From NCBI GenBank assembly GCA_004299305.1, contig SCPZ01000017.1, positions 1 through 35,401 of the forward strand: a stretch of DNA of 35,401 nt, written 5' to 3'. The translations under genes and the position numbers were made by a program. The DNA is from Methylobacter sp. Its GTDB lineage: Bacteria; Pseudomonadota; Gammaproteobacteria; Methylococcales; Methylomonadaceae. The notes beneath the pieces were generated by a model. It had not been told where the DNA came from, made no database searches, and saw only the letters and a program-made list of their open reading frames with translations. This document shows positions 7,056 to 34,219 of the stretch, one piece after another; the first letter of the stretch is position 1, and each line of letters starts with the position of its first letter.

Positions 7056-7826
7056 TTACCCCTGGCTCTTGTTGTTAGATGATTGCTCGGCATCTTCAAG
7101 GATGGCTACGGCAACGCCGTTTAAAGCCATTTTGGGTACGATCAATTTGCCGCGCGTACTGGCGATCAGCGCGCAGGGTTCGCATACCCCCGGCAAGCCA
7201 ATATTTTGCTGCACCCAGTCCGACGGCTTTGTTACCCAAGATCTAGCCGCCACTGTCGCGCTTGCCAATACCCGCAACGGCAAATCGTGCTGCCTACAGA
7301 ACGCCAATAATCCCGGTTCGTTTGCCTTTAAATCGATGGTGGCAAGTTCGCGCACTTCGTTTAACTGCCGTTTCCCTAGGGCCTGTTTTACGGCGGCGGC
7401 GATTTGTTCCGCAGTTACGTCTTTCCGGCAGCCTATGCCAATCACCAAAGGCTTCAAGGCTTCGGTGGCCGTAGTGATGACCGGCACCGCACCGATTGCA
7501 TTGGCGACGCGGTAAGCCAAACGGTTGGCGCCGCCTTCATGACCGGCCAGCAGCGATACAGCAAATCGCCCCGCTTCATCCAACACTACAACGGCCGGGT
7601 CGCTATGTTTATCTTGCGCCAAGCCATCGAGAAAGCGTACCGCGATGCCGCTGGCGGCTATCATGATCCATTGTTTATGCAGCCGGTAAGCGGCGGCAAA
7701 CTGTTGTTTTTGGCTGTTGGCTGTATCGAGCCACGGTCGATACAGCACGCCGCCCAGCGGCTCTTGCAGAGCTACAGCCAAGGCTTCGCTTTCCGGCCTT
7801 ACCAGCCAAATGCCGCAATCTGTCAC
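7056..7826 (-). CDS. cbiG: Cobalt-precorrin-5A hydrolase CbiG
   Basis: CbiG opens the delta-lactone of cobalt-precorrin-5A and releases the C20 carbon as acetaldehyde in the oxygen-independent B12 route. The 256-residue product has the CbiG N-terminal and central pattern (IAASGIAVRFL, DPAVVVLDEAGRFAVSLLAGHEGGAN, PVITTATE). The CbiG C-terminal domain follows (LVIGIGCRKD, then CEPCALIASTRGKLIVPK). It is not fused to CobJ/CbiH as in some genomes. The start overlaps the cobM stop (ATGA). It is the last gene of the B12 locus and converges on feoC with only 43 bases between and no obvious terminator. Confidence 0.92.
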   Translation of the reverse strand: MTDCGIWLVRPESEALAVALQEPLGGVLYRPWLDTANSQKQQFAAAYRLHKQWIMIAASGIAVRFLDGLAQDKHSDPAVVVLDEAGRFAVSLLAGHEGGANRLAYRVANAIGAVPVITTATEALKPLVIGIGCRKDVTAEQIAAAVKQALGKRQLNEVRELATIDLKANEPGLLAFCRQHDLPLRVLASATVAARSWVTKPSDWVQQNIGLPGVCEPCALIASTRGKLIVPKMALNGVAVAILEDAEQSSNNKSQG

Positions 7827-8599
7827 GTTGCAGCCTTCTTCTTTTTAACGACGCGGAAAATATGGGTGAAGTCTTTTGAATACAGACTGGATTCGATTTG
7901 TTCTCCGCGTCCCAACGCTTTGCCCACCAATAACATCGTGGTTAGGTTCCACTCACTTTTCTTGGTTTCTTTAAGGATGGTCCCCAAAGTGCCTTGGTAA
8001 GACTTCTCTTCCGGCCAAGTCGCTTTATAGACCAACGCCACCGGCGTGTCGTCCGGGTAATGCAGGCGCAGGTCGGCGACTATTTTCTTTAAATGCGGCC
8101 CGGACAGGAAGATGCACATGGTCGCTTGGTGTTCTGCCAGCCGCGCTATAGATTCCAGTTCCGGTACGGCGGAGGCGCGACCGGAAACACGGGTCAGGAT
8201 AATAGTTTGCGAGACTTCCGGTTTGGTCAGCTCGGCCTTAATGGATGCCGCCGCCGAGGTGAACGAGGATACACCCGGTACAATTTCGTAGGCTATGCCC
8301 AGCGCATCGAGCCGCCGCATTTGTTCGGCGGTTGCTCCGTAAATGGCTGGGTCGCCGGAATGCAGACGCGCCACATCGCAACCTGTCTCCTGAGCGCGGC
8401 GATAACAAGCTTCTTGCTGCTCAAGGTCTAGCTTGGCGGTGTCGATCAATTCGGCATCCGGGCGGCAATGCTGCAACATGTCGGTAGGCACCAAGGAGCC
8501 TGCGTACAGCACCATGCTGACCCGGCCAAGAATATTAGCGCCGCGTAATGTGATCAGATCCGAAGCGCCGGGTCCTGCACCGATAAAGTAAACTTTCAT
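7823..8599 (-). CDS. cobM: Precorrin-4 / cobalt-precorrin-4 C11-methyltransferase
   Basis: A SAM-dependent tetrapyrrole methylase (CobM/CbiF family) that methylates C11 of the corrin precursor. The 258 residues start with VYFIGAGPGASDLITLRG, the SAM-binding loop of the superfamily. LYAGSLVP, RLHSGDPAIYGA, PGVSSFTSAAASI and LTRVSGRA are characteristic of CbiF/CobM. CbiG downstream favours the cobalt-containing substrate. The C-terminal lysine-rich tail (VVKKKKAAT) overlaps the cbiG start. It follows cobI after a repeat-filled gap. Confidence 0.93.
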   Translation of the reverse strand: MKVYFIGAGPGASDLITLRGANILGRVSMVLYAGSLVPTDMLQHCRPDAELIDTAKLDLEQQEACYRRAQETGCDVARLHSGDPAIYGATAEQMRRLDALGIAYEIVPGVSSFTSAAASIKAELTKPEVSQTIILTRVSGRASAVPELESIARLAEHQATMCIFLSGPHLKKIVADLRLHYPDDTPVALVYKATWPEEKSYQGTLGTILKETKKSEWNLTTMLLVGKALGRGEQIESSLYSKDFTHIFRVVKKKKAAT

Positions 8600-8616
8600 T
8601 CTAAAACCTCTGTTGA

Positions 8617-8790
8617 TCCACGAAAATAGAACACGGATGATACCGATTGGACGGATTTGAACGGATTTTTATCCGTGCTTATCTGTTTAATCCGCGTCAT
8701 CCGCGTCATCCGTGTTCCGTTTCCTAATGCCTTGATGAGTCGTTTGATATGTCTTTTGAAAATTTTCGTGCTTTTCGTGTCTTTCGTGGA
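8617..8790. repeat. Inverted-repeat element between cobI and cobM
   Basis: The ends are TCCACGAAA (8617-8625) and TTTCGTGGA (8782-8790). Internal 12-base arms GAACACGGATGA (8629-8640) and TCATCCGTGTTC (8706-8717) are perfectly complementary. The middle has short direct repeats of ATCCG(C/T)GTC. Fragments of the same family occur at 13735-13758, 16028-16070, 34084-34112 and 34168-34206. No coding potential; probably a non-autonomous mobile or REP-like element. Confidence 0.75.
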
Positions 8791-8796
8791 CGAAAT

Positions 8797-9531
8797 TCAA
8801 GAATGTCTTTTCTCTCTGGGTGTTTTGCGTATTAATAAAGTGGCGAGATAGCCCATCGCCGAAGTCGCGCATAAATCGCTGACATCATCGGCCAGCATTT
8901 CGTCGTCCAAGCCGATGCGGCGGGCAAATGCGCAGTGCTCGGCGATGCCCATTTCACGGAGCAGGGCAAGCACCCATGGCAGGCGCGTGCCGATCTTCAT
9001 CAGCACGACGATGTCGTGGCTTTCGATGTCCTGCCGCAGCGCGACCGCATCTTCGGGGCAGGGCAGAATCAAGGTGCGTTCCTTGCCCACACCCAGCGGC
9101 CAGCCCATAGCCGAAGCAGCCGCCGCATAGCTGGTAATGCCGGGGAAGGTGCGCTGCGGCAAATCCGGCACATACTCGCGTAAGGCGGCTAATATATAGC
9201 CGTAAGTGGAGTAGGTCAGGCTGTCGCCTATGGTCAGATAAGCCACGTTAAGGCCAGCGCGTAAATCGACGGCGATGGTCTCGGCCAGCTGGGCGTAATG
9301 GTCGCTCAGCACGGTGCGGTCTGGGTCCATGGTGAACTCGATTTCCCGTATCCTGTTTTGAGCGATGTCTATGCCTGTTAAGCATTGCAGGGCCACCGAT
9401 GTGTCGGAACTGTGCGCACGGGGCGCATAGACGATGTCGGCCTGTTGCAACGCCTCGACCGCCGCCAGCGGAATATAACCCGCAGGTCCTGGTCCTACGC
9501 CTATACCCCAGAATGTGCCTAACAAACTCAT
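8797..9531 (-). CDS. cobI: Precorrin-2 C20-methyltransferase (CobI/CbiL)
   Basis: A tetrapyrrole methylase that adds the C20 methyl group to precorrin-2 or cobalt-factor II. The product is 244 residues: WGIGVGPGPAGYIPLAAVEAL near the N-terminus, then FTMDPDRT, YLTIGDSLTYSTYGYI and FPGITSYAAAASAMGWPL, all diagnostic of CobI/CbiL rather than other corrin methylases. I chose the ATG at 9531 because AGGAG lies just upstream and the protein aligns there; 45 further in-frame codons upstream lack family similarity. The extreme C-terminus (KTPREKRHS) abuts the repeat element and may not be native. Confidence 0.92.
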   Translation of the reverse strand: MSLLGTFWGIGVGPGPAGYIPLAAVEALQQADIVYAPRAHSSDTSVALQCLTGIDIAQNRIREIEFTMDPDRTVLSDHYAQLAETIAVDLRAGLNVAYLTIGDSLTYSTYGYILAALREYVPDLPQRTFPGITSYAAAASAMGWPLGVGKERTLILPCPEDAVALRQDIESHDIVVLMKIGTRLPWVLALLREMGIAEHCAFARRIGLDDEMLADDVSDLCATSAMGYLATLLIRKTPREKRHS

Positions 9532-9609
9532 ATTGCTCCTCACTAAAATAGCCTTTGTGTCGGTGCGGCAGTAACGTTGTCTACAACGCCTGGTTAAAGC
9601 CGGAAAAAA

Positions 9610-9712
9610 TATCAACGCGATAAGATGCGCTAACTTATAGGATGCCGCTGACGTAAGGAAGCGCATCGCCTATGTTTGATGCGCCTCCCTTCGTTCGGTA
9701 CATCCTATTGCA
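9610..9712. repeat. Palindromic repeat with GCGCATC/GATGCGC hairpin
   Basis: GCGCATC (9661-9667) and GATGCGC (9678-9684) form a hairpin. A related direct word, GATGCGCT, occurs at about 9621. The block fills the gap between the lipoprotein gene and cobI and resembles a dispersed REP-type unit. Confidence 0.5.
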
Positions 9713-10189
9713 CTAATTAGATTTTAAAAAAATTTTCTTCAATAAATCGTCTGGTGCAACATCTTTAGGACAAGTATATGAAGAGTCCGCATAACCCTTG
9801 AGTAAAACACCACCGCCAAACCTTGAATAAAAAATACTTTCACCTAAAAGTTTGTTGTCCTTTCGCCGATAAACAAAAAAATGATTTCGATATGCCGCTA
9901 ATCCACCAGACTCACTATACGCATTTTGGATATGCTTATCTTCAGAGGTGCTGTAATACTCATAAGTCACTTTTCTATTATCAAAGGATATACCTGTAAA
10001 ATGCCCCGATTGATCAAACTGCTCCTTCGGCAAAGTCACTGTTTCATAAACTTTAATTCCGCCGTCTTTCGCACAAAGCTCGTCCAGCAAACGATCTGCC
10101 TGCCATTGGCGGGGGGTTGAACAAGCAGTGATAAACGAGATTAAAAGTAATAAAATGGTCAAATTGAGCATTTTCTTCCGTTTTCGCAT
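9713..10189 (-). CDS. Predicted lipoprotein of unknown function
   Basis: The 158-residue product has a basic N-terminus (MRKRKK), a hydrophobic stretch (LTILLLLISFI) and a lipobox ending in TACS, so it is probably a lipid-anchored envelope protein. The mature part is hydrophilic, with two further cysteines (in ELCAKDGG and YTCPKD) that could form a disulfide. I do not recognise a family. I chose the ATG at 10189 because GGAGG stands directly upstream; an earlier in-frame start at 10249 has none. The base composition looks more AT-rich than the flanking cob genes. It sits inside the B12 locus in the same direction, but a role in B12 metabolism is not shown. Confidence 0.8.
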   Translation of the reverse strand: MRKRKKMLNLTILLLLISFITACSTPRQWQADRLLDELCAKDGGIKVYETVTLPKEQFDQSGHFTGISFDNRKVTYEYYSTSEDKHIQNAYSESGGLAAYRNHFFVYRRKDNKLLGESIFYSRFGGGVLLKGYADSSYTCPKDVAPDDLLKKIFLKSN

Positions 10190-10288
10190 AATGACCTCCG
10201 TTGGTAACTTAAGCGCTTTTTCTTTATCCGTATTTATCACCAATGACACCGATAGAAACGGGCCGTGGCCGCGATATTTGGGCGACGA

Positions 10289-11443
10289 TTACGAAAATGC
10301 AGCGCCCTTGCGGGCGCGGCCCGCTCCTACAATGCTGCCTTGTAAATCAAACAGCCGCACTTCAACCTTTTTCACGGCAGGCACACGGGTATGAACAAGC
10401 GCGGCGATGCGCTGTTCGATGTCCATCCATAACGCCTGCGAGCCGGGTTCGTTCGTTAACCGTTGAATGGCCGCTTCCACGGTGTTGGCCTGTTCCAGCT
10501 CTTGCACCAGAAGATTGTTAAGCCCCCGTTCCGCAGCTATTCGTGCCACGACATTCATCGCCATATCGCTCTTGCTGGAGTGTGTATCCCATACTGCATC
10601 CAGTGCTTTAGCAAGTTTGCCCGGATGTCCCAGCAGCCACAACACATCCAGATGGCGCTGTTGTTCAGTCAAGGCCCGCTGTAAAAAATCCAACGCGTCG
10701 CCAAGAAAATTGGCAATCTGCACCGAACGCTGTTCTGGCAAACTCAGTATTTCTTTTGCATAGACGCGGCCGATTTTGCCTGGCAGCAATGCGATGCTGG
10801 TTGCATCATTACCGAGTGCGACGCGGACATAAACCTCGATCGAAGCAATCCAGGACGCCAGCGATAAAGGTTCGACCAGACCCGAAGTGCCGAGTATCGA
10901 GATGCCGCCGACTATGCCGAGTTTCGGGTTGAAGGTCTTTCTGGCAATCGCTTCACCGTTGACACAGCCTATGGTCAGGTCGAAGCCTTGGTCATTGCCG
11001 GACAGGTCGGCGACCGCCTGCCGCATCATGTTGCGCGGCGTCGGATTGATTGCAGGCTCTCCTACCGCTACGCGCAACCCTGGCTGAGTCGCGGTACCGA
11101 CGCCTGTCCCTGCAAAAAAGCGTATCTGTCCTGTGTCGTTTCTTCGCACTTCGGCAAAGATGGTCGCCCCGTGCGTGTTATCCGGGTCATCGCCGCCGTC
11201 TTTCAGCACGTCAGCGCGCGCCGTTTGCAGGTCCAGTCTGCGGCTGTCTTGTATCGGTACGGTCAGGTAATGCGTATCGTCAGGCAATGTTATCTGTACC
11301 TGGCTGCGATACTCGCCGTGCAGCAGCAAATGGAGTGCGGCTTTAACCGCCGCTGCGGCGCAGCTGCCTGTAGTGCGCCCGCGCCGTAAACCGTTCGGCG
11401 CGAGCACGCTGAGATCGAATTCCTTAAGTTCCGTCTGAGCCAT
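10289..11443 (-). CDS. cbiD: Cobalt-precorrin-5B (C1)-methyltransferase CbiD
   Basis: CbiD methylates C1 in the oxygen-independent corrin pathway. The 384 residues begin, after a short lead, with LRRGRTTGSCAAAAVKAAL, the CbiD signature. DGGDDPDNTHGATI, GVGTATQPGLRVAVGEPAINPTPR and GGISILGTSGLVEPLS follow in the expected order. I prefer the ATG at 11443, which overlaps the end of the upstream fusion gene by 20 bases; a TTG at 11452 is possible. The last codons (SIVGAGRARKGAAFS) and the stop are supplied by a REP-like palindrome, so the native C-terminus may have been replaced. Confidence 0.93.
   Translation of the reverse strand: MAQTELKEFDLSVLAPNGLRRGRTTGSCAAAAVKAALHLLLHGEYRSQVQITLPDDTHYLTVPIQDSRRLDLQTARADVLKDGGDDPDNTHGATIFAEVRRNDTGQIRFFAGTGVGTATQPGLRVAVGEPAINPTPRNMMRQAVADLSGNDQGFDLTIGCVNGEAIARKTFNPKLGIVGGISILGTSGLVEPLSLASWIASIEVYVRVALGNDATSIALLPGKIGRVYAKEILSLPEQRSVQIANFLGDALDFLQRALTEQQRHLDVLWLLGHPGKLAKALDAVWDTHSSKSDMAMNVVARIAAERGLNNLLVQELEQANTVEAAIQRLTNEPGSQALWMDIEQRIAALVHTRVPAVKKVEVRLFDLQGSIVGAGRARKGAAFS
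10290..10332. repeat. REP-like palindrome overlapping the cbiD 3' end
   Basis: On the minus strand the block reads TTGTAGGAGCGGGCCGCGCC and continues into GCGCCC-GCAA-GGGCGC (10302-10317). That is a six-pair stem with a four-base loop. The GTAGGAGCGGGC word is the form of REP units known from pseudomonads and other gammaproteobacteria. It encodes the C-terminus of CbiD. Confidence 0.65.
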
Positions 11444-12998
11444 ACTCTGCAAGCTGGTTTACCGCATCGATCATCAAGCCGTTAACGACCGTTGCCGCCC
11501 ACGGTGAACCGCCGCGCGTACCGGTGTTGGTGATGCGCGGCACTTGCAGGCAGCGTTTCAATTCCGCCTTCGATTCGCAGGTGCCGACAAAGCCGACCGG
11601 CAGGCCGATCACCAGTTGCGGTCGCCAGCCATGTTCGCGAATCAGGCGCACGGCTTCCATAATCGCGGTCGGCGCATCGCCTATCGATAGCACGATGTCG
11701 TTACCGAACTTTTCAAAAGCGCGCCGTATTCCGGCTGCGGAACGGGTGATGCTCTGCGTTTGCGCCATCAGCGCGGTTTCAGGGTCATGTACCCCGCACC
11801 AGGTTTCGATGCCGAGCTGTTCGAGCAGTGCGCGCTTTAGGCCGGTTTGCACCATGGTCACGTCGGTCACCACACGCTTACAGCGGAGCAGGGCGCGGAT
11901 GCCGGTTTCGACTGCGCCCGGCGAAAAATAAATATCATCGACTGCATTAAAATCGCCGCTGGTATGCACCAGCCGCTGTAGTACGGTTAAATGCGCTTCG
12001 GGAAAAATCGACCAGTCGCGCCCGGCTGCGATGATGCGGAAACTTTCCGCTTCTATTGGATGCGGCACGTAAGGCGCAAATTCTGTTGCAGCTACAGCTA
12101 CAGCGGCTTTTTCAAATAAGCCTCGCACCTGAAGATGATGGGGACGTTGCGGCTCGCCGACCTGTTGTTCAAAGCCGACGATTTGCACCCGGTATTTGCA
12201 CAGCGAGCAGTTCATCTCCGCACGGCCTTCTATCGCTTCCTGCGCCCTGTCGATCAAGGTATCGGCGACATTCGGATGCACGCCGAGATAACCGGCTTTG
12301 AGCACTTCCAATTCAGGTTCGCGTTGCTGCAAGGCGTCGGCGGCCTCGTAAATACGCTTGACCAAGATGCCGTCGAACAGGAAAAACGGCACAACGATCA
12401 GCCGTGCGTAGCCCAGCTTCGCGGCAGTGCGCAGGCCGTCGGCAACCAGCGGCTTGGCCGTGCCTGAATAACATACATAGGATGCGCCAAAGCCCATGCC
12501 TTCCTCGATCATCCGCGCGAACTTGGCGACTTCGCCATTCGCGTCGGGATCGGTAGTGCCGCGGCCGACCAGGACCAGACAGGTGTCGTCTCTGCGGACA
12601 GTTTTTGGCGATGTCGCTTCGGCCTTGACGACGCGCTGTTGAACCACTTGCAGCAACAGTGGATGCAAACCCATCGGCGCACCGAAATGAAAGTCGATTT
12701 CTGGATGTTCATGCGCGAAGTTCAGCAGTTCGCTGGGCATGTCGTTTTTGGCATGGGTCGCCGCAAGCAATATGCCGGGCACCATGACGATTTGTTTGGC
12801 ATCGACTTTCAATTGGTCGGCAATCGCTTGGTCGATAGTTGGGCTGGCAAATTCCAGGTAACCGTGGCTGACTGTATGCTGCGGTGCGCGTTCCTTGACC
12901 AGTTCAACCAGCTGTTCGAATTCCCGAATGCCGTCGGCATCGCGGCTGCCGTGTCCTGCGATAACGATGCCGAAGTGTTGGTTTGTTTCAGCCTGCAT
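11424..12998 (-). CDS. Fusion of cobaltochelatase CbiX and precorrin-8X methylmutase CbiC/CobH
   Basis: A 524-residue two-enzyme protein. Residues 1-260 are a long-form CbiX, which inserts Co(II) into sirohydrochlorin: IVIAGHGSRD with H16, LLAATHAKND with H82, and a second CbiX repeat with VLVGRGTTDPDAN. M262-N-C264-S-L-C267 is an MXCXXC motif like the one linked to an iron-sulfur cluster in Bacillus CbiX. From about residue 310 the methylmutase follows (LVHTSGDFNAVDDIYFSPGAV, VVTDVTMVQTGL, IGDAPTAIMEAVRLI, GLPVGFVGTCESK), which moves the C11 methyl to C12. The start overlaps the cbiE stop (TGATG); the end overlaps cbiD. The fusion joins an early and a late pathway step. Confidence 0.93.
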   Translation of the reverse strand: MQAETNQHFGIVIAGHGSRDADGIREFEQLVELVKERAPQHTVSHGYLEFASPTIDQAIADQLKVDAKQIVMVPGILLAATHAKNDMPSELLNFAHEHPEIDFHFGAPMGLHPLLLQVVQQRVVKAEATSPKTVRRDDTCLVLVGRGTTDPDANGEVAKFARMIEEGMGFGASYVCYSGTAKPLVADGLRTAAKLGYARLIVVPFFLFDGILVKRIYEAADALQQREPELEVLKAGYLGVHPNVADTLIDRAQEAIEGRAEMNCSLCKYRVQIVGFEQQVGEPQRPHHLQVRGLFEKAAVAVAATEFAPYVPHPIEAESFRIIAAGRDWSIFPEAHLTVLQRLVHTSGDFNAVDDIYFSPGAVETGIRALLRCKRVVTDVTMVQTGLKRALLEQLGIETWCGVHDPETALMAQTQSITRSAAGIRRAFEKFGNDIVLSIGDAPTAIMEAVRLIREHGWRPQLVIGLPVGFVGTCESKAELKRCLQVPRITNTGTRGGSPWAATVVNGLMIDAVNQLAEYGSDGT

Positions 12999-13705
12999 CA
13001 GTTAACAGCTCCCGGCGGCTCGATCTGGCTGGACATGGGGTTGCGGGTGCGGATTAGCATGATGCTCATGTCGCTGAATTCCTGAGTTGCACAGTCGGCG
13101 AGCGTGCCGTGCCACTCCGCTTCGGAACGGGTCAGGTTCTCCCAAACCTCGGTCGGATGCTCGGTCGATATGCCTTGCTCAATCAGGTAAGCAGCAATAT
13201 GGCGCGGCATGAAGGAACGCGCGGCATCCCAAGGGCAGGGAATCACAATTGCATTGCGCTGGTCTTGCAGCACATGCACCAGATGTTGCTTAAACGGGGT
13301 TAAATCGCCGCGGCGGTGAAAGGTGATAAATGTCGTTTCGTCGAAACAGACCTTGGCGCGCGATGCGAGTATCTGCGCCGAAGAAATGCCCGGCACGGTT
13401 TCGACCGGATGGCCGCAAGCGCGCTCGACCCGTTCCAGGTACTGGAAGCCGCTGAAATGGATGTCGCCCATGAATACCACGACGCAGTTTTTGCCTGCAT
13501 GGTGTTCAGCCGCCACTTTCGCTAATTGTTCGGTTTGGTCGCGATAATTCATCAGCACGGTTTGCGCGGTAGCGGGAATCAGGCTTTGTACGACGTTAAT
13601 GACGGCATCGAATCCGGCTACCACGTCGGCATTGCGGATCAGTTCCGCGCCGCGCTGGGTCAGGTAAGCCACATCGCCAGGGCCTGCGCCTATGCAGATA
13701 ATCAT
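12998..13705 (-). CDS. cbiE: Precorrin-6Y / cobalt-precorrin-7 C5-methyltransferase CbiE
   Basis: A tetrapyrrole methylase of 235 residues. [22 protein letters not shown] and ADVVAGFD at the N-terminus, [13 protein letters not shown] in place of the common GDP-containing loop, and [13 protein letters not shown] are typical of CbiE. The decarboxylating partner CbiT is neither fused to it (as in CobL) nor found next to it. The stop overlaps the start of the CbiX-CbiC fusion by one base. A repeat-rich gap separates it from the upstream chelatase gene. Confidence 0.88.
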
Positions 13706-13734
13706 AATTGTTCCTTAATTAACGGGTGTTTTTG

Positions 13735-13845
13735 TCCACGAAAAACACGGAAAGCACGAAAAATTGTAGGTACGCTGTGCGTACCACTAGGCCTAAGGTA
13801 CGACAGCGTACCTACAAGACTCGTTTCCACGCGCTGCGTGGGAAT
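13735..13845. repeat. Cluster of palindromic repeats between the chelatase gene and cbiE
   Basis: Three blocks are visible. A fragment of the TCCACGAAA family lies at 13735-13758. A long hairpin at 13764-13817 has 15 paired bases (TTGTAGGTACGCTGT with ACAGCGTACCTACAA) and an inner GTACC/GGTAC stem. A REP of the GTTCCCACGC family, TTTCCACGC-GCT-GCGTGGGAA, lies at about 13824-13844. Confidence 0.8.
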
Positions 13846-13874
13846 GCAGTCAAGGCGCGCTGCAATGTGTAACA

Positions 13875-15869
13875 TCATTTAATACATCCACGTATCGTAA
13901 GCGCCAGATTTTCCGCCGACAACTCTTCCAGCGTCAGGTACTCAGCGCCCAAGGCTTCTGCTAATTGCCGGGCTTTCCCCAAGCGTAAGTAACCGGTTTC
14001 GGTATCGAGCACCAGGGCAGGTACGCCGCGCTCGGCAAGCAATGCAGCAAAGCTTAGCGATTCCTGCCAGGGGTCGTTGCCGACGCGCAACGCAACATTG
14101 GCCCTGCCGTCGCTAAGCAGCACCAGCAACGGTGGCATGGCGGTTTTTTCCAGTGTTTCCAGTGTTACGGACAGTGCATGAGGCAAGGGTGTGCGACCGC
14201 CGGTAGGCAGCTCGCGCAGGTTCCGTTCGGCCAGATCGACGCTACGGGTAGGAGACAGCAATAGCTGTGCGGATTTGCCGCCAAAGCTGATCACCGCGAC
14301 TTCATCGCGCTGCTGGTAGGCGTCGGTCAGCAGCGATAACACTGCGCCTTTGACGGCTTCCATGCGCCGTTGTGCGGCCATTGAGCCGGAGGCATCGACG
14401 ACAAATAAAATCAGGTTGGCGGTTTTGCCTGCCCGGACTTGTTGGTGCAGATCGTTTTTTGTCACCTGAAAGTCGACTGACAGTGATGGTGGCCGCGACT
14501 GCTCCCGGCAGTCGTCGGCATTCCCTCCATCCAGGGAGGTCAGAAGTGTCGTAATCGGTAGGGAACCGATGCGAGCGTCTGCGTTCCGAAGCGCCGCGCT
14601 GCGCAATGTAGCGCCGACGGCGAGGCTGCTTGGATTTTGGTCCGGCACGGTGCGTACCACTCGACCGCGTGGGGCATCTTGCGCGTTGCTGCGCTTGCCG
14701 GATGCGTAGCGATTGGCAAGCGTATCGACGGCTATTTTTCGTATATCAGCGGTAGACGCGGCGGCAAAGACTTGTTGTTGGTCTTGCGACTCGCCGTTAT
14801 CTTGATCGTTTTCCTGTTCGGTATCTTCAGCGCCGGATTCGCTCTGATCCGGCGGCTGCATAGCTTGTTGCATCAGGTCATCAAGCTGGTTTTGATCCAG
14901 TCCCGGTTGTTCGAACGGTTTGCGTCTGCGCCTATGCGGCAACACCAGTTCCGCCGCACCGCGCACGTCTTGCGGCGTTACCTGCGACCGCCCTTCGAGC
15001 GCCGCCAATGCGCGTGCCGCTTTGTGCATGACGATGTCGGCGCGAAGACTCGCCACTTCGAATTCGCAGCATAAATGGCTGATCAAGTCGAGCAGCGCAT
15101 CATCCAGCGTCACTTCCGGCAGCAACTGTTGCGCCGTAGCTAACTGATGGCGCAATGTCTGTTGTTCGTGCATCCAGGCCGCAGCATAAGCCGTAGGATT
15201 GGCCTCAAATGCGATGCGGCGGCGCACGACTTCGGAGCGCAAAACTTTGTCGCGCGGCGCGGTCACTTCAACCATCAGGCCGAAGCGGTCCAGCAGTTGC
15301 GGGCGCAAATCGCCTTCTTCGAGGTTCATCGTGCCGATCAGCGTGAAGCGGGCAGGGTGCGTGACCGACAAGCCTTCCCGTTGCACCGCATTGACGCCCA
15401 TCGCGGCTGCATCCAGCAGTACATCGACCAGGTGGTCGGGCAGCAGGTTGACTTCGTCGATATAGAGTATGCCCCGGTGCGCCGCTGCCAGTAAGCCGGG
15501 CTTGAACACCCGCTTGCCGCCTTTGAGTGCTTGCTCCAAATCCAGGGTGCCGATCACGCGGTCTTCGGTGGCGCCCAGCGGCAGGGTGACGAAAGGCACG
15601 CTGTCCGCTTGAGCCGTTGCATGTTTGGTATTGCAGGTTTCGCAGTGCTGATACGGCGCGCCGGGCAGGCAATTGAACGCGCATCCGGCAACTCGTTCGA
15701 TTAGCGGCAGGATGTCGATCAACGCACGCGCCGCTGTACTTTTGGCGGTGCCTTTGTCGCCGCGTATCAGGACGCCGCCCAAGGACGGATCGACGGCGCA
15801 CAGTAGCAACGCGGTCTTGAGCTGAGTCTGTTCGACGATGGCGGAAAAAGGGAAGGTGGCTTGATTCAT
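13875..15869 (-). CDS. Fused ChlI/ChlD-type cobaltochelatase subunit (AAA+ and VWA)
   Basis: Magnesium/cobalt-chelatase motor subunit of 664 residues, expected to power CobN. The N-terminal AAA+ domain has Walker A GDKGTAKST at 37-45, a cysteine group C63, C67, C76, C79 of the kind seen in this family, ATEDRVIGTLDLE, and Walker B ILYIDEVNLL. After an acidic, Gln-rich linker (about 330-370) comes a VWA domain with MIDAS D492ASGS and LPTGGRTPLPHAL. Residues about 434-460, in the linker before the VWA domain, are encoded by a run of short hairpins and look like an insertion. The neighbouring cobN makes cobalt rather than magnesium the likely metal. It lies downstream of cobN after a repeat-containing gap. 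Confidence 0.9.
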   Translation of the reverse strand: MNQATFPFSAIVEQTQLKTALLLCAVDPSLGGVLIRGDKGTAKSTAARALIDILPLIERVAGCAFNCLPGAPYQHCETCNTKHATAQADSVPFVTLPLGATEDRVIGTLDLEQALKGGKRVFKPGLLAAAHRGILYIDEVNLLPDHLVDVLLDAAAMGVNAVQREGLSVTHPARFTLIGTMNLEEGDLRPQLLDRFGLMVEVTAPRDKVLRSEVVRRRIAFEANPTAYAAAWMHEQQTLRHQLATAQQLLPEVTLDDALLDLISHLCCEFEVASLRADIVMHKAARALAALEGRSQVTPQDVRGAAELVLPHRRRRKPFEQPGLDQNQLDDLMQQAMQPPDQSESGAEDTEQENDQDNGESQDQQQVFAAASTADIRKIAVDTLANRYASGKRSNAQDAPRGRVVRTVPDQNPSSLAVGATLRSAALRNADARIGSLPITTLLTSLDGGNADDCREQSRPPSLSVDFQVTKNDLHQQVRAGKTANLILFVVDASGSMAAQRRMEAVKGAVLSLLTDAYQQRDEVAVISFGGKSAQLLLSPTRSVDLAERNLRELPTGGRTPLPHALSVTLETLEKTAMPPLLVLLSDGRANVALRVGNDPWQESLSFAALLAERGVPALVLDTETGYLRLGKARQLAEALGAEYLTLEELSAENLALTIRGCIK
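14490..14571. repeat. In-frame palindromic repeat run inside the chelatase gene
   Basis: Three short stems lie in a row: GACTGC-TCCCG-GCAGTC (14497-14513), CCTCC/GGAGG (14524-14539) and ATCGGT-AGGGA-ACCGAT (14554-14570). The block stays open in the coding frame and encodes a segment with no counterpart expected in the family linker. Confidence 0.5.
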
Positions 15870-15936
15870 TTGCTTTTTAAATTGGCGTTTCCGGCAAGCG
15901 CCTTATTCAGATCTATTTGGCTAGCAGGATGTGGCG

Positions 15937-15980
15937 GGAGTGCAAGCTTTGCTTGCCAAGGCAGGCGAAGCCTGCACTCC
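15937..15980. repeat. 44-base near-perfect palindrome
   Basis: Two 21-base arms around a two-base AA loop match at 18 of 21 positions. The left arm starts GGAGTGCAAGC and the right arm ends GCCTGCACTCC. This is a strong stem-loop in the gap between cobN and the chelatase gene and could affect mRNA stability or partial termination. Confidence 0.75.
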
Positions 15981-16027
15981 AGCGTCAAGATTATTTTGGT
16001 GTTAACGGAATCTTGACAGCTATACGA

Positions 16028-16070
16028 ATATTTTCGTGCCTTTCGTGCCTTTCGTGTATTTCGTGGACAA
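16028..16070. repeat. Fragment of the TTTCGTGGA repeat family
   Basis: Direct copies of the word CTTTCGTG followed by TTTCGTGGAC match one end of the inverted-repeat element at 8617-8790. It lies just beyond the cobN stop codon. Confidence 0.6.
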
Positions 16071-16077
16071 AAAATCA

Positions 16078-19000
16078 TCATACCCCGCGCGCTGTTTCGC
16101 CGCGCGCCTCCAGCAGGGTTTCGCTATGCAGGTATAAAGCCTGCAATGCGTCCAGCGTTTGTTGCTTTGGCTCGGCCCACATGCCGCGGCTGGCAGCTTC
16201 CAGCAGCCGTTCGGCAATGGCGTTTTGCGCCCACGGGTTGGCTTGTTCCAGGAAGCGTTGCATCTCTGGATCCATCGCGTAAGTTTCGGCGACTTGCTCG
16301 TACATCCAGTCGTCCATCACCTGAGCGGTGGCGTCGTAGCCGAATAAATAATCGACGGTCGCGGTTAGCTCCAGTCCGCCTTTGTAGCCGTGACGGCGGA
16401 TGCTGTCCAGCCATTTTGGATTGACCACGCGCGAGCGGAACACTCGCAAGGTTTCTTCTTTTAAGTCCCGCACTTGCGCCCGTGACGGATCGTGGCTGTC
16501 GCCGAAATACTTGCGCGGTTGTGCGCCGGTCAAAGCCCTGATCGTGGCGATCATGCCGCCGTGGAATTGCAGATAATCGTCGCTGTCGAAAATATCGTGC
16601 TCGCGATTGTCCTGATTGTGCAAAGCCACCTGGACGCCGGATAGGCGGGTGCGGAATGCATCGCGCTGATCGTTGCCCTGCTGGCTGCGCCCATAGGCAT
16701 AGCCACCCCAATTGACGTAGGCTTCGGCAAAATCGGCGTCGGCCTGCCAGTTTTTTTCCTGGATCAGCGGCAAGATGCCTGCGCCGTAACTGCCGGGTTT
16801 TGCGCCGAAGATGCGGAAGGTTGCCCGGCTTGATGCTTCCTGTTCGGTCAGGCCTTTGCCTATCCATTCGCCCAGTTCGGCAAGATAATGTTTGCGCACA
16901 AAGTTTTGCGACAGCGGTTCGTCAAGCGCAATGACGGCGTTGACCGCATCGTCAATCAAATCGATCAGTTGCGGGAAAGCGTCGCGGAAAAAACCGCTAA
17001 TGCGGGTCGTGACATCGATGCGCGGACGTTTTAATTCGTTCAGCGGGATGACTTCGACGCCGGTCAAGCGGCGGTTTTCATGTTGCCAAACCGGGCGCAC
17101 GCCGAGCAGCGCTAAAATTTGCGCGACATCGTCGCCGTGGGTGCGCATCGCGCTGGTGCCCCAGATGCTGATGGCGACGCTTTCGGGATAATCGCCGGTT
17201 TCACGGACATAGCGCGACAGCACTTCGTGGGCAAGTTGCTGGCCGACGCGCCAGGCGGATTGCGAGGGCACGCTACGGGGATCGACCGAGTAAAAATTGC
17301 GTCCCGTCGGCAGGATGCTTGCCATGCCGCGCGTTGGCGAACCGCTGGGACCTGCGGGTACATAGCCGCCGGAGAGGCCGCGCAGCAGGTTATCGATTTC
17401 GTCGGTGGCGCGGGCGAGGTTGGGGGCTAATTCGCGGCAGGCAAAACCAAGCACTCTTTTTATGGTGTTGCAGTTGGGCTTATCGTTCCCACGCAGAGCG
17501 TGGGAACCATAAATACGGGTGATAGCTTGGTCTATGGCGGATTCGGAATAATCATGCGCCTGCAATTCTTTGAATAGTTGTTTGCATAACGCTTCGATGG
17601 TTTCCAGTACATCGGCATGAGTGGGCAAAGGTCGTCCCGCCAGTTTTTCAAGTTCGGGAATTGCTTGCTCCAATCGGCGGCCCTGATGCTCCAGCAGCGC
17701 GTCCATGCTTAGGCCGAACAGCTTGGCAATTTCTATCGGCAGTCCGGGAATGTCTTGGTTTGGCAAGCGGGTCAGCGAGACCAGCATATCTACCAGTTGC
17801 TCGTTTTCGGGAGCCAGTCCGAGTATGTGCAAACCATCGCGGATTTGCGCCGCGCCCAGTTCGCAAAGATAGCCATCCAGGTCTTCGATCAAATGAGCGA
17901 CATCGGCACCGGCCATTTTGCTCAGGAGCTCGGGAAGTCCATCTTCGTCATCGTGGTGATCATCGTCGTGGTCATGATGATCGTCATGATGGTGATGATG
18001 CCCATGATGGTGTTCGTCATGTCCATGAGCGTGGTGATGAGGGTCGTGATGCTCGTGTTCGTGGTGATCGGCATGGTGATGCCCATCGTGATGATGTCCA
18101 TGATGGTCGTCATCGTGGTCATGGTCATGATGCAACAGCCGGGCTTGCAAGTCGGTATCCAGATTGGTTTCTTTGACCAAATCCCAGATTTGCTGCTGCA
18201 ACAGCGGCAGCTTGGCTGGATCAAGCACTTCCACTTGGTAATATTCATCAACCAGCTGGGTCAGTTGAGCCAGTGCACCGTAAGTGTCGGCGGTGGTCAT
18301 CGGCGGCGTCAGGTGATCGATAACGACGGCATGAGCGCGGCGTTTGGCCTGTGCGCCTTCGCCGGGATCGTTGATGATGAACGGGTAAAACAACGGCATG
18401 TCGGCCAGCAGCGCATCGGGGAAACAGTTTTCCGACAAGCCCACGCCTTTGCCCGGCAGCCATTCCAAAGTGCCGTGCTTGCCGACATGGACAATCGCAT
18501 CGGCTTTCCATTCATCGCGCAGCCAGCGGTAAAGCGCATAGTAATGATGAGTGGGAGGCAAGTCGGGTTGGTGATAAATAGCATCGGGGTCCATGCCGTA
18601 ACCGCGCGGCGGTTGCAAGGCCACGAAGCAGTTGCCGAGTTCCAGACCCGCCAACGCGAGCTGGCCGTCATGCATATAAGCATTGCCTGGCGCGGCTCCC
18701 CATTGCGCGGTCATTTTGTCCTGCATGTCAACGGGCAGGTCGTCAAACCAGGCTTGATATTGCGCTGCCGATACGCGGCCAACAGCATGGCTTAGTTGTT
18801 CGCTGGTCAGATAGGTATTGTCGTAAGCGCAGCGGTCTATCAGTTCATGGATCAGCGCCGTGCCGCTTTTCGGGAGCTCGCCGATGTTATAACCGGCAGC
18901 CTGCATGGCTTGCAGAATACGCATCAACGATGCCGGTGCATCCAGGCCGACTGCGTTGCCGATTTGCGAGGCTTTGCTGTTGGAGTTGGTGAATACGAAG

Positions 19001-20118
19001 GCAATGCGTTTATCGGCATTATTCAGGCGTTTAAGCCGTGCAAAGCGCGAGGCGATTTGGGCAATGCGCGCGACTCTATCTTGCACGGCTTCGTATTCGA
19101 TCAGTTCATTCGACAGGCCGGAGGTTTTTGCTTTGAACGACAGCGGTACGGTGATGATACGGCCGTCGAATTCCGGCAATACCACGTTCATCGCCGCATC
19201 CAGCGGGTTGAGGCCGCGTGCCGATTGTTCCCACTGATGCTGCATCATGCCGCTGGTGATGGCTTGCAGCACGGGGACATTGAGTTGCTCCAGCACGGAC
19301 ACCGACCAGCCTGCGGGCGTGGCTCCGCCGGGGGTGATTTCTCCCATCGCGAACGCGGTGGTGTTGATCAGTACGTCGATATGCGCGCCTTGTTCGCCGC
19401 TGAAATAATTTAAAGCGATAGGAAGCGCATTATCGCTACGACCTGCGCGTAATGACGAGGTGAACACGGGCAATACATTCAGCTCGTGTTTTTCCAGTTG
19501 CTCAATTAAAGCATCGATAAAACGCGTGTTGCCGCTCATCCAGTGGGCGCGGTAAAACACGATGCCCACGCTGGCCCGCTCCGGCGCTTTTAGGGTAAGC
19601 CAGTCGTCTGTGCTGGCGTCTTGAGATAAATCGGGATGATAAATGCCATGCTCTGGCAAATCGACTGCCGGTTCAAAACCAAAACCGGTCAGCAAAAAAT
19701 GATCGGATAGATAGCGCAGCAGTTGCGCCATATTGACGCTGCCGCCCGCCTGAAAATAGGCCTGTACCTGATGCAGTACGTCGGATGATACGGTGGACGC
19801 GGCTGCCAGTTCAGGGTCCGGTTCGCCGGTGCCGCTGATCGCAATTAAGTGCAGTTTTCGATTCTTGGCATGACGCAGCAGATCGGCAAAGCCGGGCACG
19901 CTACCGAGACGTCCCAGTACGCGCAATACAATGATACGCGCCGACACAAGCTGATGTTCCAACAGCTCGGCCATTTGCGCATCGCTTTCCAATGCCTGCA
20001 AGTTAATGCCTGTGCATGGCGGGAAACCTTCCGGCATTTGAGTCAATGCGCTTTGCAGCACCATCAGGTCGTTGGGCGCATGGGTTAGCAGCGCAATAGG
20101 CCTGTTCAAATCAGGCAT
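16078..20118 (-). CDS. cobN: Cobaltochelatase large subunit CobN with His-rich insertion
   Basis: CobN is the catalytic, substrate-binding subunit of the ATP-dependent cobalt chelatase. The product is 1346 residues. Family landmarks include VLPEFDGRIITVPLSFK, HVGKHGTLEWLPGKG, FYPFIINDPGEGAQAKRR, YVPAGPSGSPTRG, GRNFYSVDPR and FGAKPGSYGAGILPLI. The ATG at 20118 overlaps the upstream ferredoxin stop (ATGCCTGA) and gives a typical N-terminus. Two oddities stand out. Residues 663-726 are a low-complexity tract with 35 histidines in 64 residues, mixed with Asp and Gly. At about residues 871-879 a REP palindrome is translated in frame as YGSHALRGN. The His tract probably binds cobalt or another divalent metal; this is inference. 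Confidence 0.94.
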   Translation of the reverse strand: MPDLNRPIALLTHAPNDLMVLQSALTQMPEGFPPCTGINLQALESDAQMAELLEHQLVSARIIVLRVLGRLGSVPGFADLLRHAKNRKLHLIAISGTGEPDPELAAASTVSSDVLHQVQAYFQAGGSVNMAQLLRYLSDHFLLTGFGFEPAVDLPEHGIYHPDLSQDASTDDWLTLKAPERASVGIVFYRAHWMSGNTRFIDALIEQLEKHELNVLPVFTSSLRAGRSDNALPIALNYFSGEQGAHIDVLINTTAFAMGEITPGGATPAGWSVSVLEQLNVPVLQAITSGMMQHQWEQSARGLNPLDAAMNVVLPEFDGRIITVPLSFKAKTSGLSNELIEYEAVQDRVARIAQIASRFARLKRLNNADKRIAFVFTNSNSKASQIGNAVGLDAPASLMRILQAMQAAGYNIGELPKSGTALIHELIDRCAYDNTYLTSEQLSHAVGRVSAAQYQAWFDDLPVDMQDKMTAQWGAAPGNAYMHDGQLALAGLELGNCFVALQPPRGYGMDPDAIYHQPDLPPTHHYYALYRWLRDEWKADAIVHVGKHGTLEWLPGKGVGLSENCFPDALLADMPLFYPFIINDPGEGAQAKRRAHAVVIDHLTPPMTTADTYGALAQLTQLVDEYYQVEVLDPAKLPLLQQQIWDLVKETNLDTDLQARLLHHDHDHDDDHHGHHHDGHHHADHHEHEHHDPHHHAHGHDEHHHGHHHHHDDHHDHDDDHHDDEDGLPELLSKMAGADVAHLIEDLDGYLCELGAAQIRDGLHILGLAPENEQLVDMLVSLTRLPNQDIPGLPIEIAKLFGLSMDALLEHQGRRLEQAIPELEKLAGRPLPTHADVLETIEALCKQLFKELQAHDYSESAIDQAITRIYGSHALRGNDKPNCNTIKRVLGFACRELAPNLARATDEIDNLLRGLSGGYVPAGPSGSPTRGMASILPTGRNFYSVDPRSVPSQSAWRVGQQLAHEVLSRYVRETGDYPESVAISIWGTSAMRTHGDDVAQILALLGVRPVWQHENRRLTGVEVIPLNELKRPRIDVTTRISGFFRDAFPQLIDLIDDAVNAVIALDEPLSQNFVRKHYLAELGEWIGKGLTEQEASSRATFRIFGAKPGSYGAGILPLIQEKNWQADADFAEAYVNWGGYAYGRSQQGNDQRDAFRTRLSGVQVALHNQDNREHDIFDSDDYLQFHGGMIATIRALTGAQPRKYFGDSHDPSRAQVRDLKEETLRVFRSRVVNPKWLDSIRRHGYKGGLELTATVDYLFGYDATAQVMDDWMYEQVAETYAMDPEMQRFLEQANPWAQNAIAERLLEAASRGMWAEPKQQTLDALQALYLHSETLLEARGETARGV
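17485..17507. repeat. REP palindrome inside cobN
   Basis: GTTCCCACGC-AGA-GCGTGGGAAC is a perfect ten-pair hairpin. It is the same family as the intergenic units at 13824-13844, 25256-25280, 34134-34162 and 35263-35280. Here it lies in the coding sequence without breaking the frame. Confidence 0.85.
17941..18132. repeat. Low-complexity GATGGT/CATCAT tract coding for His/Asp
   Basis: On the plus strand the tract is made of ATGATG, GTGGTG and GTCATC-like triplets, the complement of His (CAT/CAC) and Asp (GAT/GAC) codons. It is 192 bases, a multiple of three. Such tracts can grow and shrink by slippage. Confidence 0.8.
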
Positions 20119-20413
20119 CGCCGATACCCAAACGGTGGAAAACGTGTTCGCTGACTTCGATGTTATTTTCCAGGTGCTCGCTGACGATGCGCTCCAGCAC
20201 CGACTCGTCGGTACAGGAATACCAGACGCCTTCAGGATAAACGACCAGGATCGGGCCGTTTTTGCAGACTGCAAAACAGTTTGAACGGGTGCGTTTCACT
20301 TTAAGCTGGGGGCGGGCGTCGATTTTTTGGCCCAGCTGTTGGAACGCTTCGGTGTTGTTTCCAGAGCAGCGCGGGCCTGTACACATCAATACGTGTTTGT
20401 TGTGGGTTCTCAT
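20111..20413 (-). CDS. Thioredoxin-fold [2Fe-2S] ferredoxin
   Basis: A 100-residue small ferredoxin of the thioredoxin-like family. C11 and C16 (MCTGPRCS) and C46 and C50 (SNCFAVCKNGP) supply the C-x4-C and C-x3-C pairs that hold the cluster. PILVVYPEGVWY is a typical hairpin of this fold. It is coupled on both sides: its ATG overlaps the cbtA stop (ATGA) and its stop overlaps the cobN start. A role as electron donor in cobalt reduction or corrin synthesis is suggested only by position. An upstream in-frame start at 20461 would extend into cbtA and is less likely. Confidence 0.88.
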   Translation of the reverse strand: MRTHNKHVLMCTGPRCSGNNTEAFQQLGQKIDARPQLKVKRTRSNCFAVCKNGPILVVYPEGVWYSCTDESVLERIVSEHLENNIEVSEHVFHRLGIGDA

Positions 20414-21087
20414 GACTCTTTTTTGTAAAACCGCCCCAGCAAACCGCCGATAGCTAGCCAAAACACAGCGTTAGCAACAACGGTGGCGACGATAAAAGCT
20501 TGCGCCAATTCGGCAGGTGCGGCACTGCTGTGGACTTCCGGTTGCGGCGCACTGATTAAATGAGGAGCAACAAGCAATACCGCACCGAAAAACTTGTTGG
20601 TTTTGGTAAGGGCAAAAGCCAGTAACGACAGGCCGAAGCCGGTATCGAGCACTGTTATCAGCCACCAACTTTGCCGATCCGCCAGTTTGGCAGCTTCGGT
20701 GCCGGGAACTTCCGGCGGCAATCCCAAAGAAGGTGCAACGAAAAAAGTCAGGTAACCGGCCAGTCCCCATAATAATCCTATGCGCCAACTGCCGGGACGA
20801 CCGCGCAAACACATGACCGAACCAAGCAACAGTGCAAAACCTACGCCCAGGCTGATATTGGCTACTGCGGTAAAAAATGTCCGTTCCCAGCCGTTTTCAG
20901 GCTGCCATTCATGGTGTTCGTGGCTGTTTTCCGCATTGGCAACAGTCGTAGCCGCTTCGTACGCTTCGGCCTGGAGCAAGGTCGGGATAACTTGAATTTG
21001 TTGAACGGCGGTTAATAACAAACCCGCCAGTAAGCCGGTCCAGAGAGCCGCAATCAGCAGCTCCCTGAAGGTAGTCAGGTTAAACAT
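20410..21087 (-). CDS. cbtA: Cobalt transporter subunit CbtA
   Basis: CbtA is a predicted inner-membrane cobalt uptake protein found under cobalamin riboswitches. The 225 residues have about five to six membrane segments. A His-rich loop after the first helix (ENSHEHHEWQPENGWER) has the H-x-H-H-x-W-x-P pattern of the family, and VAPSLGLPPEVPG and WWLITVLDTGFGL follow. I chose the ATG at 21087, which overlaps the cbtB stop (TAATG). It is the second gene of the operon. Confidence 0.9.
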   Translation of the reverse strand: MFNLTTFRELLIAALWTGLLAGLLLTAVQQIQVIPTLLQAEAYEAATTVANAENSHEHHEWQPENGWERTFFTAVANISLGVGFALLLGSVMCLRGRPGSWRIGLLWGLAGYLTFFVAPSLGLPPEVPGTEAAKLADRQSWWLITVLDTGFGLSLLAFALTKTNKFFGAVLLVAPHLISAPQPEVHSSAAPAELAQAFIVATVVANAVFWLAIGGLLGRFYKKES

Positions 21088-21314
21088 TAATGGCACGGAA
21101 AGCTGGCGGAATGTCGTCCATCATGTGCAGCGTTATGCAGCTGCGCAGTTTCAGCGAAACCGGCGGCATACAAGAGAGTTAAGCCAAGCATGGCGGCCAG
21201 CATAGAGGGTAGGATTCTATCTGAAATCCCCCTGCCTTCGGCCTCCCCCTTTGACAAAGGGGGATTGAGGGGGATTTTTTGAGCGTTATCGAGTAAAGCA
21301 GGTGTTGATGACAT
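21087..21314 (-). CDS. cbtB: Cobalt transporter subunit CbtB with in-frame repeat
   Basis: CbtB is a one-helix partner of CbtA. The 75-residue product ends in HNAAHDGRHSASFPCH, the conserved metal-ligand tail of CbtB, after one membrane helix (MLAAMLGLTLLYAAGFA). AGGAG precedes the ATG at 21314. Residues about 13-30 (including NPPLSKGEAEGRG) are encoded by a palindromic repeat, making the protein longer than the roughly 60 residues usual for the family. The insertion lies before the helix, in the N-terminal tail. It is the first gene after the riboswitch. Confidence 0.9.
   Translation of the reverse strand: MSSTPALLDNAQKIPLNPPLSKGEAEGRGISDRILPSMLAAMLGLTLLYAAGFAETAQLHNAAHDGRHSASFPCH
21224..21277. 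repeat. Palindromic repeat inside cbtB
   Basis: Two nested stems are visible: AATCCCCC (21225-21232) with GGGGGATT (21269-21276), and CCCCCTTT-GAC-AAAGGGGG (21245-21263). The block is about 54 bases, a multiple of three, and encodes the NPPLSKGE-type peptide that marks this kind of dispersed repeat in many bacterial genomes. Confidence 0.8.
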
Positions 21315-21471
21315 GGGTTTTCTCCTGGGTAAAGAGACGGCAAAACCGGCAACGCACCATTTCAAGTTATGGCTTACCGGCGGAAATAATCTATACGGGG
21401 AGAAAGTGCAGGACGGACGCGAAGGAGAGCAATCCATCTGAGCGCCCTCCGCGCACACAATGATTATTGTT

Positions 21472-21646
21472 TTAGGCCGGTCTCCGGGCTCACAAGTTGA
21501 AAGTCGATGCTTGAGCTTTCAAGGTTAGCGCCTTCCCATGCATGACACAGTGGCGTTTACCAACCTTTTACTTGTTTACCGTTGCGGGGGCAGCGTGGGC
21601 TTTGTTTGCTGTGTTAAGCGAACTCACCGACTTCCCGTTTCAATTC
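21472..21646 (-). promoter_or_regulatory. Cobalamin (AdoCbl) riboswitch
   Basis: Read on the minus strand, the leader has GGGAAGTCGGTGA near its 5' side, then GCTGCCCCCGCAACGGTAA, then GCCACTGTG and ATGGGAAGGCGC. It ends with the B12-box GAGCCCGGAGACCGGCC (21475-21491). These are the conserved elements of the cobalamin riboswitch in the right order. It ends about 160 bases before the cbtB start and should repress cobalt uptake and corrin synthesis genes when cobalamin is bound. Confidence 0.95.
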
Positions 21647-21691
21647 TGAGGACGATAGTCCATGAATACCTAAAGCAAGTTATACCGGGCT

Positions 21692-34049: not shown

Positions 34050-34083
34050 GGCTTGGTTTTTTACGATTTGATGTGTTTAGTTG

Positions 34084-34206
34084 TCCACGAAAAGCACGAA
34101 AGACACGAAATAGAGCAATGGGTTGTTATGCTCCTCGTTTCCACGCAGCGCGTGGGAACGAGAGTAAATCCGTTTAAATCCGTCTAATCCGTGTCATCCG
34201 TGTTCT
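34084..34206. repeat. Composite repeat block between mxaR and mxaS
   Basis: Three parts are visible: a TCCACGAAAAGCACGAAAGA-type fragment from 34084; a perfect-ended hairpin CTCGTTTCCACGC-AGC-GCGTGGGAACGAG (34134-34162); and AATCCGT repeats ending in TCATCCGTGTTC (34195-34206), identical to an arm of the element at 8617-8790. Confidence 0.8.
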
Positions 34207-34219
34207 ATTTTTTAATCGC

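Follow-up and report, generated by a model that had tools for sequence, protein, structure and literature searches.

Results

Palindromic units inside a cobalamin gene cluster

The window analyzed here is the entire contig SCPZ01000017.1 of a Methylobacter sp. (35,401 nucleotides; contig C30 of the 4.49-Mb host genome), and our subject is a set of short palindromic repeats lying in frame within genes of its cobalamin cluster. The cluster occupies the minus strand and comprises a riboswitch, cbtB, cbtA, a small open reading frame (ORF) that we read as ferredoxin-like, cobN, a ChlI/D-type gene, a cbiE-like gene, a CbiX/CobH-like gene that appears to be a fusion, and cbiD. Four of these genes carry the repeats. 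cbtB (21087-21314) encodes a proposed cobalt transporter subunit of 75 residues, insert included, which scores 64.1 bits against the NCBIfam CbtB cut-off of 64.4. cobN (16078-20118, ATG at 20118) encodes a cobaltochelatase subunit that matches TIGR02257 with 1292 bits and the CobN structure 7c6o. The ChlI/D-type putative cobaltochelatase gene (13875-15869) matches TIGR02442, and cbiD (10289-11443, starting at MAQTELK), the cobalt-precorrin-5B C1-methyltransferase gene, matches TIGR00312 with 378.5 bits.

An earlier note, made from the window's letters alone, had claimed that palindromes of at least three families are built into these four genes. Inspection of the sequence and its ORFs bears this out: the palindromes are in frame in cbtB, cobN, the ChlI/D-type gene and the 3' end of cbiD, all four frames are open, and the families number four, each dispersed in the genome (A in cbtB, B in cobN, C in cbiD and D in ChlI/D). 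All four units are given on the minus strand. The family A unit lies in the N-terminal part of cbtB (21222-21280), encodes about KIPLNPPLSKGEAEGRGISD, and is centered on a core hairpin at 21244-21264 with a perfect 10-bp stem and a 1-nt loop. The family B palindrome GTTCCCACGCTCTGCGTGGGAAC lies in a linker of cobN (17485-17507), has a perfect 10-bp stem with a 3-nt loop, and encodes GSHALRGN. These two are among only seven perfect inverted repeats in the 35.4-kb window (stem of at least 9 bp, loop of at most 12). The ChlI/D-type gene carries a composite family D unit, D1 plus D2, at 14475-14576 (ends accurate to a few bases); its 102 nt, or 34 codons, encode residues 432-465, after the ChlI-like AAA region (3-321) and before the VWA region (485-658). 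The fourth unit, a GTAG-type repetitive extragenic palindromic (REP) unit of family C at 10289-10332 (core 10310-10330), supplies the final codons of cbiD (about GSIVGAGRARKGAAFS), a tail unique to the window in the alignment. The cbiD and ChlI/D units are weaker palindromes, yet both are dispersed repeats.

Filled and empty sites in related genomes

The relatives compared, G001-G022, belong to the same genus as the host. The ChlI/D-type gene was detected in 21 of 81 genomes searched, the host counted, and operon regions were taken from 20 relatives. Among 20 aligned ChlI/D sequences, the 34-residue insert is present in two, those of the window and G007, as a clean 102-nt addition. The same 34-codon segment recurs in frame in a different gene: in locus L139, from a record labelled Methylobacter sp. 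STA_13, the cobN ORF (7197-10763) carries an 85% identical copy after the SLRAG of CobN, a position where window CobN has none. The family A unit of cbtB was found in four of 17 aligned CbtB sequences (window, G006, G008 and G015); about 10 native codons were replaced in the event, and 10 more were added. G007 has an unrelated 24-nt insert near this site. The family C unit forms the C-terminus of CbiD only in the window (1 of 18 aligned rows), where it creates a new end and does not interrupt the protein. The tail of G018 CbiD is different, G021 cbiD has an internal family A-like insert of 11 residues, and cbiD of G058, from another family of the order Methylococcales, has a 37-residue insert at another position.

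Peptide tags of the four window inserts were absent from all comparison loci outside 15 listed Methylobacter loci, among loci with a homologous ORF numbering 74 for cobN, 68 for ChlI/D, 51 for cbtB and 53 for cbiD; the sharing with distant genera that the earlier note had named as evidence against insertion was therefore not seen in these loci. The alignments map the insertion points, and the empty or differently filled sites in relatives identify the segments as insertions.

Unrelated families fill one cobN linker

The cobN linker could be resolved between two conserved anchors in 15 genomes of the genus, the window being one of them; the rest of the relatives were not anchored. Twelve of the 15 linkers hold repeat-derived inserts, drawn from at least four families and in some cases mosaic, and three (G007, G011 and G015) are empty, at 72 nt. 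Single B units are found in the window (90 nt), G010 (90 nt) and G013 (84 nt, decayed), and a compound B dimer in G008, G009 and G019 (171 nt). In G002, B is accompanied by another palindrome pair within compound B (204 nt). Family E fills the linker of G018 (243 nt) and of G006 (321 nt), where a second palindrome lies inside the E hairpin. The linker of G021 is occupied by family F (117 nt), that of G004 by family G (96 nt), and that of G016 by family G beside half of a compound B (159 nt). In all 15 genomes the linker length is a multiple of three, and a single open frame runs through it.

Families E, F and G are counted as repeats because further copies occur elsewhere. The family E pattern matches exactly at nine host places; wider family E counts were not used as copy number, since most of the listed host hits are other sequence (CCCTCTCC-TGTT/TGCT-GGAGAGGG types). 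G-type hairpins occur elsewhere in G004 and the host, and a family F-like palindromic unit (GGGAGTGCAAG...GCCTGCACTCC), of the family that fills the G021 linker, is intergenic in the window at 15937-15980. Beyond the genus, E-like hairpins occur in the cobN linker region of G058. Two Methylomonas-labelled records have A+T-rich stems of 8 and 9 bp there, and in the scannable loci outside Methylococcales the longest stem is 8 bp. Separately, window cobN has a long His/Asp-rich tract at 17922-18150 that varies among relatives and in G021 contains a 16-bp hairpin.

Copies dispersed in the host genome

All four window families recur in the host. At up to two mismatches, family B has 42 sites, or 36 loci once neighbors are merged. 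At up to three mismatches, family A has five places and family C has 26 sites in 16 loci; reversed-pattern controls gave zero for A, B and C alike. For family D, BLAST at E≤10 returned 34 matches; the tally uses those 22 that reach E≤0.01, which form 18 loci, and leaves out the 12 weaker ones. D1 (about 51 bp) and D2 occur separately or joined, and D1 also forms head-to-tail arrays with 51-bp spacing at C2:3444-3640 and C42:41627-41780. Because 51 is divisible by three, whole D1 units never shift the reading frame.

Counted inside against between genes, 16 of the 75 loci of families A-D are internal to host genes, as called from open frames with a codon-score heuristic followed by Pfam and PDB matches, in place of full annotation. 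Three of the five family A loci are internal, in cbtB, in holB between its two Pfam domains, and in a YfiH-like gene whose unaligned segment against 1rw0 coincides with the unit. Family B is internal at three of 36 loci: cobN, the condensation domain of a nonribosomal peptide synthetase (NRPS), which holds a compound dimer of the type seen in cobN of G008, G009 and G019, and the linker of an ABC transporter that we take to be CydC/D-like. Family C is internal at one of 16 loci, in hsdS, besides the cbiD end. Family D is internal at nine of 18: the ChlI/D-type gene, an Exo_endo_phos protein, MutY, an ABC ATPase, a lytic transglycosylase, two hybrid histidine kinases, a FliK-like and a nuclease-like gene. 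The remaining family D loci are two C-terminal (in an NtrY-like kinase and a UDP-GlcNAc epimerase), one ambiguously N-terminal and six intergenic. The names CydC/D, NtrY, FliK, NuoF, TtcA and MurF are our presumed readings of the sequences together with Pfam matches.

Several candidates were kept out of the internal count. A family B site in an 885-residue ORF (L219) was judged a chance overlap; B sites on the 5' side of ORFs (L005, L008, L216 and window 30766), a family C pair beside an ORF that is presumably lipB-like (L036), and A units close to ORF starts (L019 and L020) were likewise omitted. At L226, one of the 36 family B loci and a duplicate context, there is no spanning ORF longer than 140 residues. 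Among the dropped family D matches are C-terminal tails on NuoF-, TtcA-, MurF- and NrdR-like proteins; L071 and L072 (host C79 and C118) encode NrdR- and NuoF-like proteins that apparently end in family D-derived tails, below the E cut-off used.

Other insertion-prone genes

The exact 51-nt D1 insert of MutY is present in two of 20 aligned genomes (host and G001); the site is empty in 17, and in G016 it holds another addition, of 18 nt. At the insert point, host MutY is 17 residues longer than Escherichia coli MutY (1kg2). In HolB, an intact family A hairpin is found in three of 21 genomes, and several other HolB loops (PLLQKEDL, PLSKREDL and similar) look to us like decayed family A versions. 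metH, examined as a control, has no internal insertion or deletion of four or more residues in 15 genomes. purL had been picked as a second control and is not one, because it carries inserts itself, in two hot loops filled in three of 15 genomes at site 1 and in seven of 15 at site 2. At site 2, H-type units are found in G002, G007, G015 and G021 and a different short unit in G000 and G018, while the insert of G006 is mosaic. Forward sites of family H, counted in four genomes (G002 and G015 lying outside the count), number zero in the host, 36 in G007, 26 in G021 and four in G019. Family content thus fits lineage: H has no site in the host, whose purL site 2 holds a different insert, and is frequent in G007 and G021, which carry H there.

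Reading frames and substitutions

Between the window and G007, the ChlI/D insert differs at four synonymous and five nonsynonymous codons, against 127 and 40 in 490 flanking codons, a borderline difference (p=0.049). In the MutY insert, all eight codon differences between the host and G001 are nonsynonymous and none is synonymous, against 94 synonymous and 45 nonsynonymous ones in the next 300 codons (p=0.0002). Of the six orientation and frame classes, four are occupied by the nine family D copies internal to genes, or five when terminal copies are added, with the frame set by where each BLAST alignment begins. Since family D is read in several classes, no fixed peptide is mobile, and a mobile peptide domain was rejected. 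The substitution pattern and the spread of frames fit tolerated DNA. We also considered whether the elements have unusually open frames, which comparison with shuffled sequence does not establish: eight of 11 units are somewhat more open than the shuffle mean, families E, G and H are not, and most of the copies tested came from genes.

A RAYT gene associated with family C

The host has six Y1_Tnp matches above cut-off. Family C units have a terminal GTAG beside a short palindrome (GTAGGAGCGGGCCGCGCCCGC and variants), and 10 of the 16 loci are inverted dimers, that is, opposite units with starts 47-61 bp apart. On contig C131, the ORF of a REP-associated tyrosine transposase (RAYT; Y1_Tnp) at L227:1627-2148 on the minus strand (L227 being host C131:26500-31000) has family C units on both sides, at 1472-1492 and 2085-2152. 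This gene sits within a type I restriction locus, adjoining hsdS and an ORF that by eye is hsdM-like, and a further family C dimer lies inside hsdS after the first specificity domain match. The REP label given in the earlier note, taken strictly, is shown to apply to family C alone, with its GTAG end and RAYT gene: among the units inspected, A, B and D have no GTAG end, and none of their units turned up within about 1.5 kb of the six Y1_Tnp genes. By eye, no clear CGTC end was seen. A RAYT probably moved family C, and other enzymes presumably moved A, B and D.

Other features of the window

Two further family B copies are intergenic, one in the same gene cluster (13824-13844) and one elsewhere in the window (34138-34158). 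A cobalamin riboswitch (RF00174, 96.6 bits; 21458-21688, minus strand) lies upstream of cbtB and is context outside the repeat system. The window also contains two other direct-repeat pairs, at 8686-8733 and 34174-34221 (CCGTGTCATCCGTGTTC type) and at 13719-13761 and 34068-34110 (CCACGAAA-CACGAAA type). Palindromes of the CCCTCTCCTGTTGGAGAGGG type occur on many G000 contigs, several of them at contig ends, and are perhaps the ends of an abundant insertion sequence.

Discussion

The four segments are, with high probability, copies of unrelated, non-autonomous short palindromic DNA elements that inserted into coding sequence and of which selection keeps the tolerated copies. Such elements would insert at the DNA level, and copies that break genes would be lost. 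Survivors would be those with a net length divisible by three, no in-frame stop and a position in a tolerant linker, loop or terminus, and they would be translated as extra residues. With time, such copies may acquire nested units, undergo exchange or fade into ordinary protein sequence. Tolerant loops being few, the families abundant in a lineage would end up in the same ones. The repeat segments are presumably translated and probably near neutral.

It is very improbable that the segments are instead native functional linkers, palindromic by chance. Betaproteobacterial cobN linkers are by nature variable and long, and the holB loop is variable as well, but the same DNA lies between genes and within unrelated genes, where it is read in different frames; relatives have empty or differently filled sites, and the ChlI/D segment stands in cobN of L139. 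For the four window segments, empty sites together with dispersed copies led us to reject this explanation. Equally hard to credit is that the inserts are cut from the mRNA or bypassed by the ribosome, leaving proteins without them. Intragenic hairpins resemble bypass or self-removal signals in some systems, but bypass needs no length divisible by three, so the 15 of 15 cobN linkers that have such a length and one open frame speak against it, as do the purL and mutY inserts, which behave alike. On the strength of these lengths and open frames, removal or bypass was rejected as a general explanation. The inserts could also be adaptive, for example by tuning chelatase or repair activity or mRNA stability, which we regard as improbable. 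Repair and replication genes (mutY and holB) are among the targets, as PMC3733652 describes for other species, and the cbiD unit lies at a 3' end, where the same source says that REPs act on mRNA. Against this stand the sparse, lineage-specific presence of the inserts and their excess of nonsynonymous differences.

Hot linkers might be actively targeted, with resident repeats or hairpin DNA attracting more. Nested and mosaic inserts would suit such targeting (the second palindrome in the E hairpin of G006 compared with G018, the compound B of G002, and family G beside half a compound B in G016), as would the presence of at least four families at one cobN linker and of E-like hairpins in G058, from another Methylococcales genus. 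Selection for tolerant loops alone could yield the same pattern, however, the cbiD and mutY loops were hit without a visible earlier resident, and no target sequence was found, so we consider active targeting unlikely. The earlier note had also drawn attention to several families striking one cobalamin operon. All four families are indeed there, but the operon is not special: the same families lie within many other genes and purL has two hot loops, and operon-specific targeting was rejected. We offer slightly less doubtfully, though still as a tentative idea, that a few tolerant loops of core enzymes are recurrent landing pads, where resident units attract others, families replace each other by lineage and palindromes erode into new clade-specific protein segments.

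Several observations weigh against the insertion of mobile palindromic elements as set out above. The long segment at purL site 1 of G004 stays unassigned to a repeat family, and the family H counts cover only four genomes. Internal positions were called heuristically, and two of the nine internal family D genes (the N-part of Slt and the FliK-like gene) have no domain match on both sides; the ChlI/D rate test, as noted, is borderline. The roughly 1.5-kb flanks of the six Y1_Tnp genes showed no unit of A, B or D (by pattern for B, by BLAST at E≤0.1 for A and D), in a search confined to transposases of this type. Target-site duplications, which together with terminal inverted repeats and a matching transposase mark miniature inverted-repeat transposable elements (MITEs), were sought by eye in the empty-site comparisons, where no consistent example emerged and boundaries are ambiguous by a few bases. 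B is present in some form in the cobN linker of eight of 15 genomes and cannot be dated as recent from that alone. Weak support for the backbone of the operon gene tree precludes an exact count of events, and recombination may underlie the sharing. The comparisons with relatives support the earlier note's tolerated spread into proteins at linkers and termini; the word recent fares less evenly, since the ChlI/D insert is shared with one other species and the cbtB unit with three, B is found in these eight genomes, and holB copies look partly decayed.

Intragenic palindromes are already known. Di Nocera et al. 2013 (PMC3733652) describe GTAG and CGTC REPs that lie within ORFs in several bacteria. 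These keep the frame, occur singly or as dimers and are frequent in DNA repair genes, and the authors suggest linkers and loops as their sites. They also report that recB of two Xanthomonas species carries different REPs at nearly one position, a precedent for site sharing. Here, by comparison, a single genome has at least four families within its genes, and three of the four lack the GTAG end; among congeners, several unrelated families fill one loop, which can be seen empty, nested or decayed. The host is also a free-living methanotroph, and "Methylo" does not occur in that paper. As described there, Rickettsia palindromic elements similarly comprise several families in frame in many unrelated proteins, and the likeness drawn in the earlier note holds at the level of behavior, with in-frame insertion into many unrelated proteins and 16 of 75 loci internal; the host class differs, and family C has a RAYT. 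Family C resembles REPIN/RAYT systems (PMC3116915, PMC2817692, PMC8266576) in its GTAG end, inverted pairs and units flanking a Y1_Tnp gene, whereas families A, B and D lack that end and could not be linked to a RAYT. The RU sequences of enterobacteria (PMC2759123) are also small mobile repeats read as parts of proteins, but they are longer, at 103-168 bp according to the abstract. Open-access titles and abstract openings yielded no report of intragenic palindromes in Methylobacter or Methylococcales, a weak absence given that scope, and a passage search of PMC12306157 gave neither "intragenic" nor "Methylo". What appears to be new, in that we did not find it in the literature searched, is that unrelated families have colonized the same loops repeatedly within one genus, with empty, nested and decayed states and a family content that varies with lineage.

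These inserts also carry a warning for annotation, as they can split profile matches (cobN, ChlI/D and purL) and can leave a short protein just below a curated threshold, as with CbtB at 64.1 against 64.4 bits. PMC3733652 gives gene-by-gene lists of intragenic REPs in separate species; here, close and partly cultured species show the states of a loop side by side and so allow a stepwise view of how mobile DNA enters proteins, is tolerated there and becomes assimilated. If a few tolerant loops do serve as recurrent landing pads whose palindromes erode, palindromic mobile DNA would keep supplying this genus with new enzyme sequence.

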